Part shown: positions 51,884 through 58,998 of the stretch, piece by piece | Layout: every line of letters starts with the position of its first letter | Numbering within the stretch: the stretch's first letter is position 1 | Assembly (NCBI RefSeq): GCF_000737595.1 | Contig: NZ_CP006271.1 | Coordinates: 434,001 to 498,000 of the forward strand | Direction: 5' to 3' | Source of the DNA: Synechococcus sp. KORDI-52 | GTDB taxonomy: Bacteria; Cyanobacteriota; Cyanobacteriia; PCC-6307; Cyanobiaceae | Length of the DNA stretch: 64,000 nt | Position numbers and translations under genes: made by a program | The notes under the pieces: generated by a model | What the model was told of the DNA's origin: nothing | Seen by the model: the letters and a program-made list of their open reading frames with translations, nothing else | Database searches by the model: none

Positions 51884-52051
51884 TCAGTTCGAATCGGTGC
51901 TGCTCTGACGGCGCACTTCTCCGATCAGCCATACGCCCATGAATCCGAGCGACGACAAACCGAAATAGATCAACACCCACCGCAGAACCCGGTCAGGATC
52001 CGCAGCTGCATTGGCGAGCAGCTCAGCGGTTTTGGCAAGCAGGTTGTCCAT
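51884..52051 (-). CDS. 55-residue single-pass membrane protein
   Basis: The ATG at 52051 opens a 55-codon frame: an N-terminal amphipathic helix (MDNLLAKTAELLANAAAD), one transmembrane helix (about 24-44, VLIYFGLSSLGFMGVWLIG) and a short basic/polar tail. The ATG overlaps by one base the stop of the next upstream gene (TGATG), as for translationally coupled genes. No family is recognised, but the composition and coupling make it a real gene. A bioenergetic or cell-envelope complex subunit is one possibility. Confidence 0.7.
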   Translation of the reverse strand: MDNLLAKTAELLANAAADPDRVLRWVLIYFGLSSLGFMGVWLIGEVRRQSSTDSN

Positions 52052-52413
52052 CAGTTCTGAAGATCGGGGATCAACGTGAGTTGGCGGACCGGTGACTCTT
52101 CGCTGACAAATCCCCAGGCTTCAAACACCGTGGGATCGGGATGCGTGATGCGCTGCTCCGTGCCGTTGCGTTCCAGCTGGAACCCTTCGCTGGACATGCG
52201 CCGCATCAAGCTTGCTGATTCCTCAAAGCGGGCAGCCATCGCCTCAAGGCTTGAGCAGTCACCTGTGAGACCGGATTCACGCCAGGTGAAATAGGTCATT
52301 TTCTCAACTGGAACATAGGACTCAGGTGTAGCAGGGGTTTTAAGCGGTAAAGGTTCAGCACAACACTGTGTGAATAAATCAAGCTCTTTCAACTGGCAGA
52401 ACCGGTTAGCCAC
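52051..52413 (-). CDS. Conserved-looking hypothetical protein
   Basis: The 120-residue soluble protein contains the stretch CSSLEAMAARFEESA and the ending FEAWGFVSEE, which look like an alpha/beta small protein of picocyanobacteria. I do not know its function. The start is uncertain: GTG at 52413 has an AAGGAG about 14 bases upstream, but the ATG at 52299 (MTYFTWRESG) would give an 82-residue protein without the Cys/Pro-rich N terminus. It is coupled to the 55-residue membrane protein and is the last GC-rich gene before the AT-rich island. Confidence 0.65.
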   Translation of the reverse strand: MANRFCQLKELDLFTQCCAEPLPLKTPATPESYVPVEKMTYFTWRESGLTGDCSSLEAMAARFEESASLMRRMSSEGFQLERNGTEQRITHPDPTVFEAWGFVSEESPVRQLTLIPDLQN

Positions 52414-52452
52414 AGTTTAGAAGATCACTCCTTAATCAAATTATTTTGAGCC

Positions 52453-52700
52453 ATGACAACCTATCAACTACCGATGAGAAAGCTCCTTCTCTTACTGCTG
52501 CTGTTGGTTGCCTCTTTGCCCACTAGTGCTGCAGTTGATCAAAGATCGCTGATTTCTGGATGAAGGCGACTTACTTTGCAGGTTGTGTACGGACTATTAA
52601 TGTTACTCTACCGCTCAAGTAGCAGAAGGATCTTGAAAGAAGCTATATAGTTGTACTCATGATGACGGCACCAATATTCGGATTTGTATCAACTCAATAA
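52453..52700 (+). pseudogene. Decayed small secreted protein gene
   Basis: The ATG at 52453 (or 52474, MRKLLL) gives a clear signal peptide of Leu-rich residues ending near SAA-VDQ, and the frame stops at 52561. The frame shifted from 52551 continues as DFWMKATYFAGCV, a Cys-containing block typical of short secreted picocyanobacterial proteins. It is then cut by a TAG at 52620 before reading on to a TAA at 52698. One indel and one nonsense change restore a continuous protein of about 80 residues. It lies just inside the AT-rich region. Confidence 0.5.
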
Positions 52701-52873
52701 AAGCAGTTCATTAGACGGGATTTTTAAAAGGTACGTGCAGCATGAATTTGGTCTTACGATAAGTAACCAAACATTATGTATGCATTTCAGTATATTGAAC
52801 ATAGCAATCGTTTACTAAGATCGCTGCATATCTAGAAATTTCAAGCTAAAATAATTCAAATATCTTAAAGCTC

Positions 52874-53634
52874 GTGTTTAGCTATTATTCAAGCATTGAA
52901 GATTTCAAATCTAATCACAAAAAAAGGATCGTCGTTTTTACAACCTGTAACCTTGGGGGGCTCCTTTGGCTAAAAATTTAGCTATCAGCTGCTGGAAGCA
53001 AGGGGTTGAGCTTCTTTTCTTCGGCAATGACGAGGCTTCTATTAATCAAATGTCAAATTATGCTAGCACTGTAAATAACATCAAGGAAAATAGATTTCGG
53101 CTAGACATAACACGAGATCTACCTGCCGATCACACAAAATTCGACACCGAGGACTTCATAAAAACAGCTTGGATGAGATATGAAATCTTCAAATTTCTCA
53201 CTTGGAATAATTATTATTCTATCTACTTGGATACAGATATTCTTGTAAAGAAAGATTTTACCGAAGATATTATTTCTTATATGGAAAAGAGCTATATTGA
53301 TGGTGTCGTACAGTTAAATCATCATTCGCGGCCGTGTACTGGAATTTTGGGATTTCATCCACGATCAAAATATAAACTTAATCGTATCTATTCAGAAAAT
53401 TATTTAGGAAATTTCAATTATAAAGCTATTTATGGTGCTGCAGATCAGTCATCTTTTAATGAACATGTCTGCCCTCATGATGATCAACCAAAGCTCAACA
53501 TGAATTTTTTATCTCGGGATTTATATCCGAATGGCGCTTGGTGGTATCGGAATAATAAAATCTTAAAAAATGTTGCAAAAATAGCTCACTAGAATTGCGT
53601 GATTGGCCAAAATTATAAAAATGAAGCAGTTTGA
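52874..53634 (+). pseudogene. Glycosyltransferase-like gene, broken by frameshift and nonsense
   Basis: A frame from GTG 52874 reads SYYSSIED...KKRIVVFTTCNLGG, the beginning of a GT-A type nucleotide-sugar transferase, and runs out at the G6 tract 52955-52960. The adjacent frame, open from 52966, continues FAKNLAISCWKQGVELLFF and includes the metal-binding YLDTDIL and the ending NMNFLSRDLYPNGAWW. At 53590 a TAG interrupts what should be an H-Y-N-x-V-I-G terminus, and the same frame continues NCVIGQNYKNEAV to 53632. Base composition is AT-rich. The gene is probably non-functional. Confidence 0.65.
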
Positions 53635-53772
53635 AGACTATTATCCAAATAACAGTATCTAGTATCCTTACTTATGCCTGTTTCTAGATAATTAATGAAT
53701 TATGTAGAGAGATGCGAACATGATTTGCTTCGATGTACGATATATGTATTGGAAATTAATTCTATTAATCAT

Positions 53773-54606
53773 TTATTTGGGAAGGATAGTGATTTTGAGT
53801 GCTTTTAAAATTTCTATTGCGGTGCTAGCTGTTACTTCGGTGGGTTGATAACGACAAAAGGTGTTTTCGTATTTCGATATAAAATCATCGTTTGCCTTTT
53901 CTGCGCTTGCAAGAGACTCTTGATCTATTGACTCTCTGTTGATGCTGTAATCTTTTGTTTTTATGTGATTCGCATGATAATGTGTAGTTTTGTCGTACTT
54001 TTCGAAACTTAATTTTTCTTCAGAGTCAAAATTTTCATCAATAAAGTTTTTGACTTGTTCCAAAGAATTCATATTTCTAATACTGTCTACGTTCATGTCT
54101 GGCAGACCTTTTCCAAATAATAAGTCGCTTATTTGTTGTATCTTATTATTGCATTGGTTAGGGCTTTCAATCTCTGATTCCTTGACAAGCACTAGGGATG
54201 ATACCTGTGAAAGGGTGTTGTCCAATCTACGGTTGTAATTAAACATATTTTGCATCTTTTTACTTATCCTGGAATAGTTGGTTTTGGTTGGATTTTGCCT
54301 GGATACTCGCATTTGAGATAATGCTGTTTGGAGTGGGTCTCTAACAGAAATAATTACATTTGGGATAATTAATCCTGGAAGAAAGGACGATATTGTTTTA
54401 AGGACTCTTATTTTATGAGTTTTTATGAGAAGAAAATCATAGGAGTTTTCGTTAATAAGTGGGATTGACTCGCTGATTTCTTCTTGATTGGTAAACAAAG
54501 AAAGATAAGAAAACCCCTGATCTTTGAGTATGCTTTGGGTTGTATTGAATGCCCAAGTTGTGCCTGACCTTGGCAGGCCGATCGAAACAACTATTTTGAG
54601 TCCCAT
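53773..54606 (-). CDS. Sulfotransferase family protein
   Basis: The 277-residue protein has the 5'-PSB loop for PAPS binding (GLPRSGTTWAF, residues 10-20) and a 3'-phosphate binding region (IISVRDPLQTALSQ, about 84-97), both typical of sulfotransferases that transfer sulfate to sugars or lipids. Its AT-rich codon use contrasts with flanking core genes. It is divergent from the two-domain gene with 57 bases between starts. A role in sulfated surface glycan or lipid formation is inference. Confidence 0.82.
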   Translation of the reverse strand: MGLKIVVSIGLPRSGTTWAFNTTQSILKDQGFSYLSLFTNQEEISESIPLINENSYDFLLIKTHKIRVLKTISSFLPGLIIPNVIISVRDPLQTALSQMRVSRQNPTKTNYSRISKKMQNMFNYNRRLDNTLSQVSSLVLVKESEIESPNQCNNKIQQISDLLFGKGLPDMNVDSIRNMNSLEQVKNFIDENFDSEEKLSFEKYDKTTHYHANHIKTKDYSINRESIDQESLASAEKANDDFISKYENTFCRYQPTEVTASTAIEILKALKITILPK

Positions 54607-54663
54607 GGGAATAAAGGTGCTTCACTGTGTTTTATAATACTATAACTTCTTTGTTTAGTTACC

Positions 54664-56100
54664 ATGCACGGTGCAGCAAAGCGTCTTGAGGAAAGCCTCG
54701 TTGACAATCCCGTATCTATAGCATGGGTCATTGTAGGACAAGAGTCCAGTGGTAGTAAGTTCATAGCCAAAACAATGGCCAAAATATTTCACCATAATGA
54801 TTACAAGGGAACATTTTTTAGTTTAGTAAATTCCAGCTTAATTTATCATCGCTCATGTCCTTTTGGTCGCCCCAAGAATGGGTTTGATTTCATTAAGGAG
54901 GAGATAGAAATTATTCGTTCGCACTGTCCTTGTGTGAATATAATATTCACAACTAGAAGCAAAAATATTTCTTTTTCAAGAAAGGCTTTGCGTTTTGGTG
55001 ATACTACTGAGAGTGCGCATGCAGATCTCGTTGATTTAGACCGACTGTATGAGTATCTAGTCAACCTTGGTAATTTGCTTTTTGTTTGGAACTATGAAAC
55101 CATGTGCCTTCTTCGTGAAAAATATTTTAAAAGATTATATGATTATTTTGGGATTAATTCTCATTACTTCCCCAATGTAAATGACTCCAACGAGGAATTT
55201 TTATTTAATAGCATTTTCTTTGCCGATGAATACTCTTCGATAGCGCTAACATGTAATATTAATTTATATCGAAAAAAGAATGCTAAAGAATTGGACTCTA
55301 CGCAATTAGAGACAATTAAATCACTAAAAAAGGCACTTTATGCCTCTGTCAACAGACAGCTTAAAATTGTCGTTTCAGTAGCATCTAGAGACCTGCGATT
55401 TTTTCATAGTTTATTTCGCGGTGAGAATAGGATTGTAGTTCGTTCCTTAGGTATTGACTCTTGTGAGCGTCAAAAGCCCTACATCCGGGACATTCTTGAT
55501 CATGACTTATATACAACCACTAATTCGAATGATCAAAGAGTGAAGTCATATTGCATGTATTTAAATGCAGATATTTGTGTGCCGAATTATTTTTTCGAAT
55601 TCTTATTCCAGCAGCTTATTGGCTTTTCAAATACTAAGTTTCCTGGAAATTTGACAAAAGCCAAAAAAACTTTTGACTGTATAGTCATAAACCGTCGCGA
55701 TGTTATTGGCGATGATCTTTATTGGCATCCTGGAAGTGACCTTTTTGTCTTTCCAAGTGAATGGTTGGCTTCAATGAGGTTTGGAAATGTTTGCATAGGC
55801 TTGCCCCCAATAGGTCCTATTCTTTGGCTTAATTGCCTATATCATTCAAAGTCAGCTCTTCAAGTTAGTGATTTATTTATTACACATCATATTGGCAATG
55901 ACCAAAGTTGGAAAGACTCTAAAGTTCAAGATGATGTAGATCTAAACATGAGATCAGCCGCTGAAGCTTTTCGGTCACTTATAGGCTCAGATAAACGTAA
56001 TCTTAGTAAATTTGATATGGAGAAGCATAGTATATTGGCCAAGAAGAGATTGAAACATTTTATACTGCAATGGACTTCAGATTTGGATAAAGAGGATTAA
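54664..56100 (+). CDS. Two-domain protein: P-loop sulfotransferase-like + glycosyltransferase-like
   Basis: A 478-residue protein with AT-rich codons and no clear named family. Residues 18-215 carry a P-loop VGQESSGSKFIAKTM, then IIFTTRSKNISFSRK and a WNYETM segment, as in sulfotransferase-fold proteins. From about residue 235, IVVSVASRD is followed by MYLNADICVPNYFFEFL, INRRDVIGDDLYWHPGSDLFVF and HHIGNDQSW. This resembles the N-x-D...R-x-D...HP-G-D-x-F-V-F...HQxHD pattern of nucleotide-sugar transferase-like proteins. A fusion that both glycosylates and sulfates is suggested but unproven. It is divergent from a stand-alone sulfotransferase. Confidence 0.65.
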   Translation: MHGAAKRLEESLVDNPVSIAWVIVGQESSGSKFIAKTMAKIFHHNDYKGTFFSLVNSSLIYHRSCPFGRPKNGFDFIKEEIEIIRSHCPCVNIIFTTRSKNISFSRKALRFGDTTESAHADLVDLDRLYEYLVNLGNLLFVWNYETMCLLREKYFKRLYDYFGINSHYFPNVNDSNEEFLFNSIFFADEYSSIALTCNINLYRKKNAKELDSTQLETIKSLKKALYASVNRQLKIVVSVASRDLRFFHSLFRGENRIVVRSLGIDSCERQKPYIRDILDHDLYTTTNSNDQRVKSYCMYLNADICVPNYFFEFLFQQLIGFSNTKFPGNLTKAKKTFDCIVINRRDVIGDDLYWHPGSDLFVFPSEWLASMRFGNVCIGLPPIGPILWLNCLYHSKSALQVSDLFITHHIGNDQSWKDSKVQDDVDLNMRSAAEAFRSLIGSDKRNLSKFDMEKHSILAKKRLKHFILQWTSDLDKED

Positions 56101-57897
56101 TTGGCAGCATGATCACTCACTAACAAAAATTTTATAATACCAACCTCCATTTTTGTTCTACGCAAATAATGTGAATACAAAGAGGCCTTATCCGACTTTC
56201 TCATCTTTATCAGCAAGACATAACCCCGACTGAGCCTATCTTCAAACTACATAAACCAATTTTCTGCTTCTATCACAGTAACTGGATCATACATTGCACA
56301 AAACCTCTCGCTTATTAGCTGGCTTAGACTTCAGGACAAAACGATTGGATCAACTCTTCCAGGACACAACTCCTAAACCTTTACATCAGAACGTCGAGGT
56401 CTTCCAATTGATTCAGAGAACGACAGCCTTTATTGCACGCAATCAGGATAGTGCTTGAAACACATTCCTCTGTAATGCTTTAAAGTCGTTGTTTCCTTCC
56501 TCCACAACCACCTCACATATTCCATGCGTTTATTCTACTGAAGCCAGTTCTCCAGCTAAATATACATGGGTTGACATGCCTCTAGATAGAATGAGGATTG
56601 GACTGCTCGTAAGTCTCTATATCTATCCTAATGATTTTCAAGATCGGAACGAACGAAATGCGTTCCTGTGACGTATGATGATTTGAATGCAACTCCTGGT
56701 TGGATAGATCTCTGCATTCAAGTTCTGATTGTTTGAAGGTTTCTGATTCTTTATGAATTTCCATATATTGATTTATTACCTGCGCTGATAGATCGACCAA
56801 TTTCAAGAGAGAGATTTAAGAGCCTGTTGGCTGAAGGTTGACGATCTCAATATGTATTGAATGCCAGAATTGAAAAGTATCAAGTTTATTCGTTCATAAA
56901 AGGTAAGGCAGTGCTAGACGATTTCTACTCGATCATTGATACCCTGCCTAAAGGTGGAGAAGTTTATTAAGTCTTTGCGTACCTCTCACTCCAACTGAGC
57001 CTAAGAATCAAAAGCCGATCACGTTGGACTTAAATGGACACAAGACAGAAATGACTTATGAATGATATGTACATGCCTAAGACTCTAGACTTCTAGAAGG
57101 GTTAATATTCTTCTTGTCGAGTTGATGGAAGACACTGTCAGTAACCATCCGGATCGTGAATACCTATTAATCCCAGATTGACATAAGCTTGTGGATGAAG
57201 GAGATGCACAGTGGACAGCTCTTGTCAGTTCCCTAAGCAAATAAGAACAATAAGCTCCCAAAAACAACTATGTATCTTAGTAGATTTGTAACTCAGCTCA
57301 GTAAAATCAGATTTTAAAATCTGACAATTATCTATTCAAACGATTGTTGATTCTAGTATAGGAATAATTTTGCATTGACTTTTCCTGGGACGTTTTCTTT
57401 TTTGAAGGACGAATATACTGAAGTCTCTGAGCCATATCTGATCACTTGAACGAGGCTGTTCAGTACCTCTTGTCTCTCAACGATGTTTGGCATCTTTCGG
57501 CGGTGTGTGTGAATATAGTGTGCATGGAAGATCCTGAATCCTGCAAATAAAAGCTGTAGCCTCAAATCACTTCGTCCCAGGTAAAGAAAGTTATGTATTC
57601 TGCCTCTCCGTTTAGAAAATGTGAATTTAAGCGATGTGCGCGGCATGGAGTCGTGTTATAGAAATAAAAATGTTGCCAGTTTCGCTATTTTGCTAACGTT
57701 TTCTATTGTTAATAGAGGCCTGGTCAGAAGGGCTCAACGCAAAATGCCTATTATTTTTTTAGACTAGGCTCATTTTTGCCATACATATTAATTTGTGCGT
57801 TAAGGGGCGGCTTTGATTTCAGTGATATTTTGAATAATTGAATTATTGATGTTGCTTCAGAAATGATGCTCCTCAGTCTTGGATCAAAGATCAACGC
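56101..57897. other. Decayed AT-rich region without an intact gene
   Basis: About 1.8 kb of AT-rich sequence with no intact gene of convincing length. Fragments look coding. On the minus strand near 56110-56310 a frame with one stop reads VIEAENWFM, FEDRLSRGYVLLIKM and HYLRRTKMEVGIIKFLL. On the plus strand 57089-57244 a frame with one TGA reads RVNILLVELMEDTV, HPDREYLLIPD and HKLVDEGDAQWTALV. A minus-strand 97-residue frame at 57353-57646 has AGFRIFHAHYIHTHRR. These may be remnants of surface-modification genes; no family can be named safely. Confidence 0.5.
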
Positions 57898-58998
57898 TCA
57901 GGGATGTACCACGAGTCCCAGAAGCACTAGCCCCGCCGTAACCAGCCAGAACGCAGGCACCACGCTTCGTTCATCGGCGCCTCCTAGCTCAAAATGGTGA
58001 TGGAGGGGCGCCATGCGGAACACCCGTCGGCCTCGGCCCTCAGGTCCTTTCGTGGCCTTGAACACCCACACTTGAAGGATCACGGACAAGGATTCCGCCA
58101 CAAAAACCCCGCCCATCACCAGCAGTGGCCAGAGGCTGTTGGACAACAGCGCCACACCACTGAGGGCTGCCCCCATCGCCAGCGATCCTGTATCCCCCAT
58201 GAACGCTCGAGCCGGGTTTCGGTTGTGGACCAGAAACCCAAGCCACGCCCCGGCCATGGTCATGCAGAACCCAGCCAAGGCCGGATCCCCGTCGTTTCCT
58301 CGCAGCATCAGCTGAAGCGCCAGGCCTGTAAAGACCAAGGCTCCACAGCCGCTGGCCAGACCATCCAGGCCATCGGTGAGGTTGGTGGCGTTGCTTTCCG
58401 CCAGAACGACAAACAGTCCCAGTGGCCAGATCAGGATCCCAAGCGGTAGCTCAAGTCCGAACGGCAAGGCAATGCTGCTGCTGATCCAGCCCTGCCAGGC
58501 TGCGATGGTCAGAAAAACCACGGCCGCAAGGGCTTGCAGCATCAATTTTCCTCGAGCCGTCAGGCCTGTGTTGGTGTGTTTGGTCAGGCTGCTCCAATCA
58601 TCCACACCGCCGATCAGCATGAACGCCAACGTCAGCGAAGCCAGGCTGAGCAGCTGTTGTGAGGCCACGGCGTCCCTGGTGATCAGGCTGCCGAGAATGA
58701 CTCCAACCGGAACCACCAGAAGCCCCCCCATGGTTGGCGTTCCCGCTTTGCTCCGGTGGGCGTGAGGACCTTCTTCGCGGATGAACTGTCCCATCTTCAA
58801 GCGACGCAGAAGTGGGATACCCAGGCCTGCAACAGTTGCCGTACAGACCGTGGAAATCAACAGCGGCAGGCTCAGCTGCGCGTTGGGGATCCATTTGTCT
58901 GCTGCAAAACTGGCCGCCAGGACCACCAGCATCAACAAGCTGGCACTGAGCGAGCCATTTTCCCACCAAGGACGATGGTTCGGATCCGTGGATTGCAA
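57898..58998 (-). CDS. mraY: Phospho-N-acetylmuramoyl-pentapeptide-transferase
   Basis: MraY makes lipid I by transferring phospho-MurNAc-pentapeptide to undecaprenyl phosphate. The 366-residue polytopic protein has the conserved RKMGQ-like ([12 protein letters not shown]) loop, [29 protein letters not shown] and the terminal HHHFELGG. About ten transmembrane helices are present. The start appears to be TTG at 58998: an in-frame TAG lies upstream and the only ATG would cut into the first helix. GC-rich composition resumes here, marking the right edge of the AT-rich island. Confidence 0.95.

Follow-up and report, generated by a model that had tools for sequence, protein, structure and literature searches.

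A sulfotransferase-like domain joined to a predicted GT-A domain in one protein encoded on an AT-rich insertion of Synechococcus sp. KORDI-52

Genes and features at the locus

The window, that is, the whole stretch of 64,000 nucleotides analysed here, corresponds to bases 434001-498000 of the single-contig, 2.57-Mb genome of Synechococcus sp. KORDI-52. It contains an AT-rich insertion bearing a 478-codon reading frame, a divergent sulfotransferase-like ORF and a glycosyltransferase-like ORF (Table 1). The insertion sits between mraY (57898-58998, reverse strand) and an ORF at 52051-52413 on the same strand. For the same-genus comparison, mraY matches were obtained in 33 of 34 genomes (two of them weak only) and 30 loci were returned, including that of the window. 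The flanks of the insertion (~52300 and ~57830-57950) lie 23-722 bp apart in 28 of the 29 other loci, against 5.5 kb here. The exception, genome G207, has different DNA next to mraY, running to the end of its contig, with a GT2 gene and an ORF whose start looks sulfotransferase-like by eye. The insertion is foreign-looking, and a horizontal origin is probable. Given its absence from 28 of 29 loci and the different DNA with a GT2 gene in G207, the site is perhaps a variable one for surface-glycan genes.

Table 1. Positions (window coordinates) of the insertion, its reading frames and the domains and motifs of the fused protein
Feature	Position	Strand	Basis
AT-rich insertion	52300..57830	.	36.6% G+C vs 60.4% in the rest of the window
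Glycosyltransferase-like ORF in the insertion, probably 5'-truncated	52966..53592	+	Nucleotid_trans E 2.4e-4, 21.6 bits vs 22
Separate divergent sulfotransferase-like ORF, 277 aa, with PRSGTT and RxxxxxxxS	53773..54606	-	Sulfotransfer_1 E 0.0014, 18.5 bits vs gathering score 22
Fused CDS, 478 aa, predicted sulfotransferase-fold N-domain and GT-A C-domain	54664..56100	+	ORF list, fused relative
N-domain, GPESSG[TS] sulfotransferase-fold family, ~residues 1-184	54664..55215	+	Model, A10 profile, standalone relative L003:1507-2025:-
PAPS-loop-like GQESSGS, residues 25-31, without Lys/Arg at the usual loop position	54736..54756	+	Alignment
H62-R63-S64; R63 and S64 invariant (15/15)	54847..54855	+	Alignment
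3'-phosphate-binding-like R98; +8 is R106 (Ser in 14/15 rows)	54955..54981	+	Alignment; RXXXDXXXS in the relevant part of PMC11625862
C-domain, residues 204-478, predicted GT-A fold	55273..56097	+	Model, standalone relatives
N301-A-D303, DxD position of GT-A enzymes, after model strand 93-97	55564..55572	+	9/9 rows
H355-P-G-S-D359-L-F361 block; H, G, D and F in 9/9 rows	55726..55746	+	Alignment
H409-x-G-x-D-x-x-W416 block, possible metal/diphosphate site; H, G and W 9/9, D413 8/9	55888..55911	+	Alignment

The divergent neighbour agrees with the preliminary description, which placed a separate sulfotransferase 57 bases from the fused gene. The glycosyltransferase-like ORF (~52900-53592) has a TTG start just past a run of G; it is probably a broken gene, because the sequence before it, inspected by eye, looks like the lost N-terminus read in a different frame. 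Downstream of the fused gene, positions 56101-57890 form 1.8 kb of AT-rich DNA with no ORF longer than 97 aa, and the 279 bp at 57368-57646 match a segment next to mraY of G207 at 74% identity.

One reading frame encoding two separable domains

The fused gene starts with ATG and contains no internal stop codon. The blocks on which its two-part character had been proposed (LNADI, INRRD, HPGSDLFVF and HHIGNDQ) are all present in the translation, together with a P-loop-like block, GQESSGSK, at residues 25-32. The architecture is not a chance reading, since a relative of the same architecture, with 40% identity, crosses the junction in another genome and the conserved blocks recur in standalone relatives. 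This relative belongs to a Cyanobium MAG (G180), where its pieces (L005 and L002) lie on two contigs whose ends overlap exactly over 149 nt; one of the contigs is the sequence of Cyanobium sp. MAG record CAMDLO010000075.1. The possibility that two genes were misread as one is ruled out by this independent fused relative and by a frame that is open throughout. Within the same taxonomic family, 4 of 400 genomes have a match, the KORDI-52 genome included.

Each half is also found by itself. The N-domain forms a complete ORF of 172 aa in genome G036, and the C-domain one of 290 aa in Microcystis elabens FACHB-917 (G292), where its start codon overlaps the end of the preceding ORF, which shows sulfotransferase-like motifs and has no Pfam match. 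Later profile searches added C-domain relatives in cyanobacterium G714, Pelagicoccus and virus contigs, and an N-domain relative in G079; judged by ORF length and match range, these have one domain each. Weak matches of alignment A2 in G458, G625 and G627 and a match of A3 in G355 fall in frames with stops, are probably due to chance and were dropped before counting. Because the halves occur alone in other genomes, the protein is not one single domain, and the earlier proposal of two distinct parts is borne out. Sequence searches with the 478-aa protein in NCBIfam, PHROGs and PDB returned nothing, and its sole Pfam row is V-ATPase_H_C at 15 bits, below the cut-off of 27.2. In PDB, the alignments A2, A3 and A7 reached nothing better than E 0.28. 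The full-length protein has no match among phages, plasmids or viral contigs, and a first scan of genome contigs gave no confirmed relative. Structure prediction and fold search were run on the halves separately (residues 1-207 and 204-478); the best matches are PAPS sulfotransferases for the former and glycosyltransferases for the latter.

The C-terminal domain

The C-domain is predicted to adopt a GT-A fold, and the likeness to nucleotide-sugar transferases suggested for the second part of the protein is seen in the model. Built from nine aligned sequences, this model reaches a pLDDT of 74.3 and a pTM of 0.75. Foldseek returns 18 matches at E≤1e-3, all of them to the GT-A enzymes RmlT or TarS (best E 5.6e-5). 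All 50 matches listed by VIA are glycosyltransferases (Z 9.9-11.6), the best being 5hea (Z 11.6, 209 residues aligned, rmsd 3.7). Residues N301, D303, H355, G357, D359, H409, G411 and W416 are identical in all nine rows of the alignment and intact in the window protein. The acidic metal/nucleotide motif is present as NxD, a variant of DxD, in every row. GT8 enzymes such as LgtC likewise have an HxG..W block close to the C-terminus that includes a metal-ligand histidine.

Sequence searches are less informative. The window protein has no Pfam glycosyltransferase match; the virus-borne relative L016 matches Glycos_transf_2 (GT2) at 16.5 bits against a cut-off of 23.3 (E 0.0086). The hhalign comparison of the C-domain with GT2 was negative (prob 1.0), and a PDB search with the C-domain profile returned no glycosyltransferase. 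Phage records gave no match for the C-domain queries L016 and L021, nor did plasmids for L014.

Fold and sequence affinity of the N-terminal domain

The N-domain model (residues 1-207, five aligned sequences) has a pLDDT of 74 and a pTM of 0.76, its last 25 residues falling below 50. In VIA, PAPS sulfotransferases hold ranks 1-14 (Z 8.1-8.8, 153-164 residues aligned, rmsd 3.5-4.5), led by TPST2 at 8.8. The GTPase EngB reaches Z 8.1, which is a tie, as Z differences within 1 are read as ties. Models that lack a clear match also typically have their best Z between 7 and 8. Foldseek gives no match at E≤1e-3 and places mostly GTPases on top; SULT1A3, at rank 30, exceeds all others of the 50 matches listed in both TM-score (0.44) and probability (0.87). 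In a BFVD fold search a single match, to a RING-type protein of Tupanvirus, passes E≤1e-3; four rows named as sulfotransferases come further down the 50 listed. The fold alone is thus indecisive, as a GTPase scores within the range of the sulfotransferases, and evidence was sought in the sequence because of these ties and the commonness of such Z values.

A GPESSGT pattern scan of viral contigs returned 114 frames, of which 13 were kept by eye for their P-loop-protein context and 101 were discarded on inspection because they belong to different proteins or lie in the wrong frame. The resulting alignment, A10, has 15 rows (11 viral and 4 cellular sequences); L110 (nearly identical to L154), L071 (close to L124) and L005 (same gene as L002, at the opposite contig end) were left out. 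Searched against PDB, the A10 profile finds TPST1 at E 1.9e-4; three rows pass 1e-3 and the top eight are all sulfotransferases. Among six viral family members scanned, one (L160) exceeds the Pfam Sulfotransfer_3 cut-off, with 28.1 against 27. The tie between sulfotransferase and GTPase is broken by this retrieval of sulfotransferases by sequence, and at the level of the family the N-domain appears homologous to sulfotransferases, the window protein by itself hitting none. Its PAPS-binding beta-sheet architecture is a prediction of the model. The proposed sulfotransferase-fold arrangement with a P-loop in the N-terminal third thus gains support from the first 14 VIA ranks and the A10 match to TPST1, with GTPase scores within 1 Z and Foldseek taken alone favouring GTPases.

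The affinity of the window protein to the viral family depends on which segment is compared. When the 11 viral proteins were made into a profile and run against 790 frames, the window protein scored E 1.3e-6 and the standalone N-domain L003 1.6e-12; with the P-loop removed, the values become 0.027 and 2.1e-8, so the link of the window protein leans on the P-loop and that of L003 does not. In the reverse test, a cyanobacterial profile was ranked against 3000 shuffles: with the full N-domain, 7 of the 11 viral members score better than the best shuffle, and without the P-loop none does (best viral 0.033, best shuffle 0.004), although L026 stays at 5.4e-7. Comparison of the N-family with sulfotransferase profiles by hhalign was negative (prob 0.3 and 4.2). 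No relative was confirmed when viral contigs were scanned with L026 or the first N-domain alignment, and 50,697 phage records returned nothing for N-domain or GPESSGT queries.

If the N-domain were not a sulfotransferase but a P-loop NTPase of kinase or GTPase type, this would explain why GTPases lead the Foldseek rows and why EngB ties in VIA. We consider this very unlikely, as the loop GQESSGSK contains no Walker A GK[ST]: the residue following the loop glycine is Ser or Thr in all 14 A10 rows that cover the loop, which excludes the GxxxxGK[ST] pattern and its lysine, and 3 of the 14 have Val or Ser where the window protein has K32. The eight sulfotransferases at the head of the profile search, the family member passing Sulfotransfer_3 and an R...S(+8) motif in 14 of 15 rows also argue against it. 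A kinase or NTPase was dropped as the main reading on the missing Walker A motif and the profile results, and is kept as a rival because the fold scores tie. In neither respect, therefore, does the protein resemble a single domain of unrelated fold or a Walker A ATPase.

Residues of the putative PAPS site

Three features define sulfotransferases according to the relevant part of PMC11625862: a Lys or Arg in the PAPS loop, the sheet, and a Ser on the helix that binds the 3'-phosphate, with the motif RXXXDXXXS in Sulfotransfer_1. A Lys or Arg at the PAPS-loop position (PSB) is absent from all 14 A10 rows covering the loop; one is found two residues past the position of the loop Gly in 11 of the 14. 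R98 is invariant in A10, and the loop residues G25, E27, S28, S29 and G30 are kept in the window protein. Eight residues after R98, the window protein has Arg106, alone among the 15 rows; the other 14, the fused relative L002 included, keep Ser. Judged from these alignments, the N-domain is related to sulfotransferases by descent, yet it fails two residue tests of a typical sulfotransferase. Sulfation by the window protein is a matter of inference for these same two reasons, the missing PAPS-loop Lys/Arg of the family and the 3'-phosphate Ser lost in this protein alone. The required charge may be supplied by the invariant R63 or by K32, in which case the N-domain may work like a sulfotransferase. 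Sulfate transfer by the N-domain of this particular strain would nonetheless seem to be the point most open to doubt in the explanation preferred below.

The same residues bear on a rival in which an active glycosyltransferase is joined to a sulfotransferase-fold domain without catalytic activity, whose role would be recognition or scaffolding, for instance by holding a sulfated acceptor supplied by the neighbouring sulfotransferase. We regard it as possible, if somewhat doubtful. Every GT-A motif residue is kept, the usual Lys/Arg is missing throughout the family rows, the serine is replaced in the window protein only (1 of 15), and the adjoining sulfotransferase-like ORF has the usual motifs; on the other side, R63, S64, R98 and the five loop residues named above persist, and the serine is retained in all other rows, among them that of the fused relative.

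The gene could also be a passenger on a decaying insertion, intact through recency and functionless in this strain. The lack of such an insertion at this site in 28 of 29 loci of the genus, 56.1-57.9 kb without an ORF above 97 aa, a truncated-looking glycosyltransferase-like neighbour and the lost 3'-phosphate (PB) Ser would fit such decay. The 478-codon frame is intact, though, and the C-domain residues identical in nine of nine rows are unbroken here, which makes this account improbable.

Linkage to sulfotransferases and supply of PAPS

A sulfotransferase gene lies within ~5 kb at seven of the nine distinct C-domain loci. Six of these exceed Pfam cut-offs: G180 (L061:8622-9521), M. elabens (L015:2-1843), G714, Pelagicoccus, L020 and L021. 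The seventh is the window itself, whose neighbour is below the Pfam cut-off and carries the motifs. For these counts L019 was merged with L018, and L017, L181-L185, L006-L008, L013, L015 and L022 were merged with their first copies. At the virus loci L016/L017 and L018/L019 no sulfotransferase was found by motif scan; L017 and L018 are weak negatives, because the same scan missed Pfam-positive genes on L020. On that 61.6-kb virus contig (IMGVR_UViG_3300021957_006329), five tandem Sulfotransfer_2 genes directly follow the C-domain relative (L020:3111-6365), and two Sulfotransfer_2 genes likewise lie near the relative on L021.

As a yardstick for this linkage, the KORDI-52 genome has four Sulfotransfer_3 matches in its 2.57 Mb, three of them over the cut-off. 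It also encodes an APS kinase (E 1.1e-70), which makes a supply of PAPS plausible. One of its ORFs (L065:478-2067, 529 aa) has a partial Sulfotransfer_3 match in its C-terminal half (33.2 bits, over the cut-off) and an N-terminal region that is GAF-like by eye; it is possibly another unusual sulfotransferase fusion.

Proposed function and significance

The window protein is most likely an enzyme of a sulfated surface glycan, either bifunctional or combining a glycosyltransferase with an altered sulfotransferase. In its fuller form, which we hold with about even confidence, it would be a cytoplasmic two-domain enzyme of surface-polysaccharide synthesis that both adds and sulfates a sugar. The C-domain, GT-A and GT2-like, would transfer a sugar from a nucleotide-sugar donor onto the growing glycan, and the N-domain would bind PAPS and sulfate the same or a neighbouring sugar, so that addition and sulfation would reside on one protein. 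Horizontal transfer of the insertion would have brought in the gene together with those of a second sulfotransferase and a further glycosyltransferase.

More tentatively, GPESSG[TS] proteins may represent a separate sulfotransferase lineage of virus contigs and cyanobacteria that dispenses with the PAPS-loop Lys/Arg, perhaps by way of R63. In KORDI-52 this lineage would be fused to an unrecognised GT-A family dedicated to sulfated glycans, one protein both adding and sulfating.

The window protein brings together two families that Pfam-A, NCBIfam and PHROGs fail to pick up in it: a sulfotransferase-fold family whose PAPS loop is altered, and a predicted GT-A family found beside sulfotransferases in cyanobacteria, Pelagicoccus (Verrucomicrobiota) and two virus contigs. 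In our judgement, the fused pair offers a direct way to learn which sugar of cyanobacterial sulfated polysaccharides receives the sulfate, and at what stage. It is also a possible one-enzyme tool for producing defined sulfated sugars.

Comparison with known systems

The N-domain resembles the PAPS sulfotransferase superfamily (TPST, SULT, Sulfotransfer_3) in the fold of its model, in a strand-loop-helix followed by a strand-R...helix-S layout, and in sequence at the family level. It differs in having no PAPS-loop Lys/Arg, in the lost PB Ser, in its length of ~180 residues and in escaping recognition by Pfam. The C-domain shares its model fold, and an acidic motif directly after strand 93-97, with GT2-type GT-A enzymes (RmlT, TarS/TarP, chondroitin polymerase K4CP and SpsA), from which it is set apart by 9-13% identity in the 18 best Foldseek rows, by NxD in place of DxD and by its own HPGxD and HxGxDxxW blocks.

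The synechan (xss) cluster for a sulfated exopolysaccharide in Synechocystis 6803 likewise combines sulfotransferases and glycosyltransferases in one surface-polysaccharide locus; there they are separate genes, and the sections of PMC8205485 on the cluster mention no fusion. Among the papers listed by literature searches for a glycosyltransferase-sulfotransferase fusion, none describes one.

At the sequence level, such a fusion is not new as a kind. M. elabens encodes a 614-aa GT2 and Sulfotransfer_3 protein (L015:2-1843) in the same locus as its C-domain relative. When this protein was searched in 201 genomes of the family, 28 matched somewhere and three matches covered both parts; the fusions of G076 (L188:472-3306) and G023 (L190:1-3315) pass both Pfam cut-offs, and that of G062 (L189) passes for GT2 only. 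The fusions of M. elabens, L188 and L190 resemble the window protein in uniting a glycosyltransferase and a sulfotransferase in one polypeptide, and differ in placing the glycosyltransferase first and in using other, Pfam-recognised domain families. The preliminary description had called a single protein of this type unusual, a claim weakened by these fusions in the same bacterial family; what stands is the reverse domain order and the Pfam-unknown families of the window protein.

The order of domains has a parallel in Mimivirus L142, in which, according to the passages of PMC10117803 on this protein, a sugar-modifying N-acetyltransferase domain is N-terminal to a putative glycosyltransferase. 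In L142 the modification is acetylation instead of sulfation, and the modifying domain is a different one.
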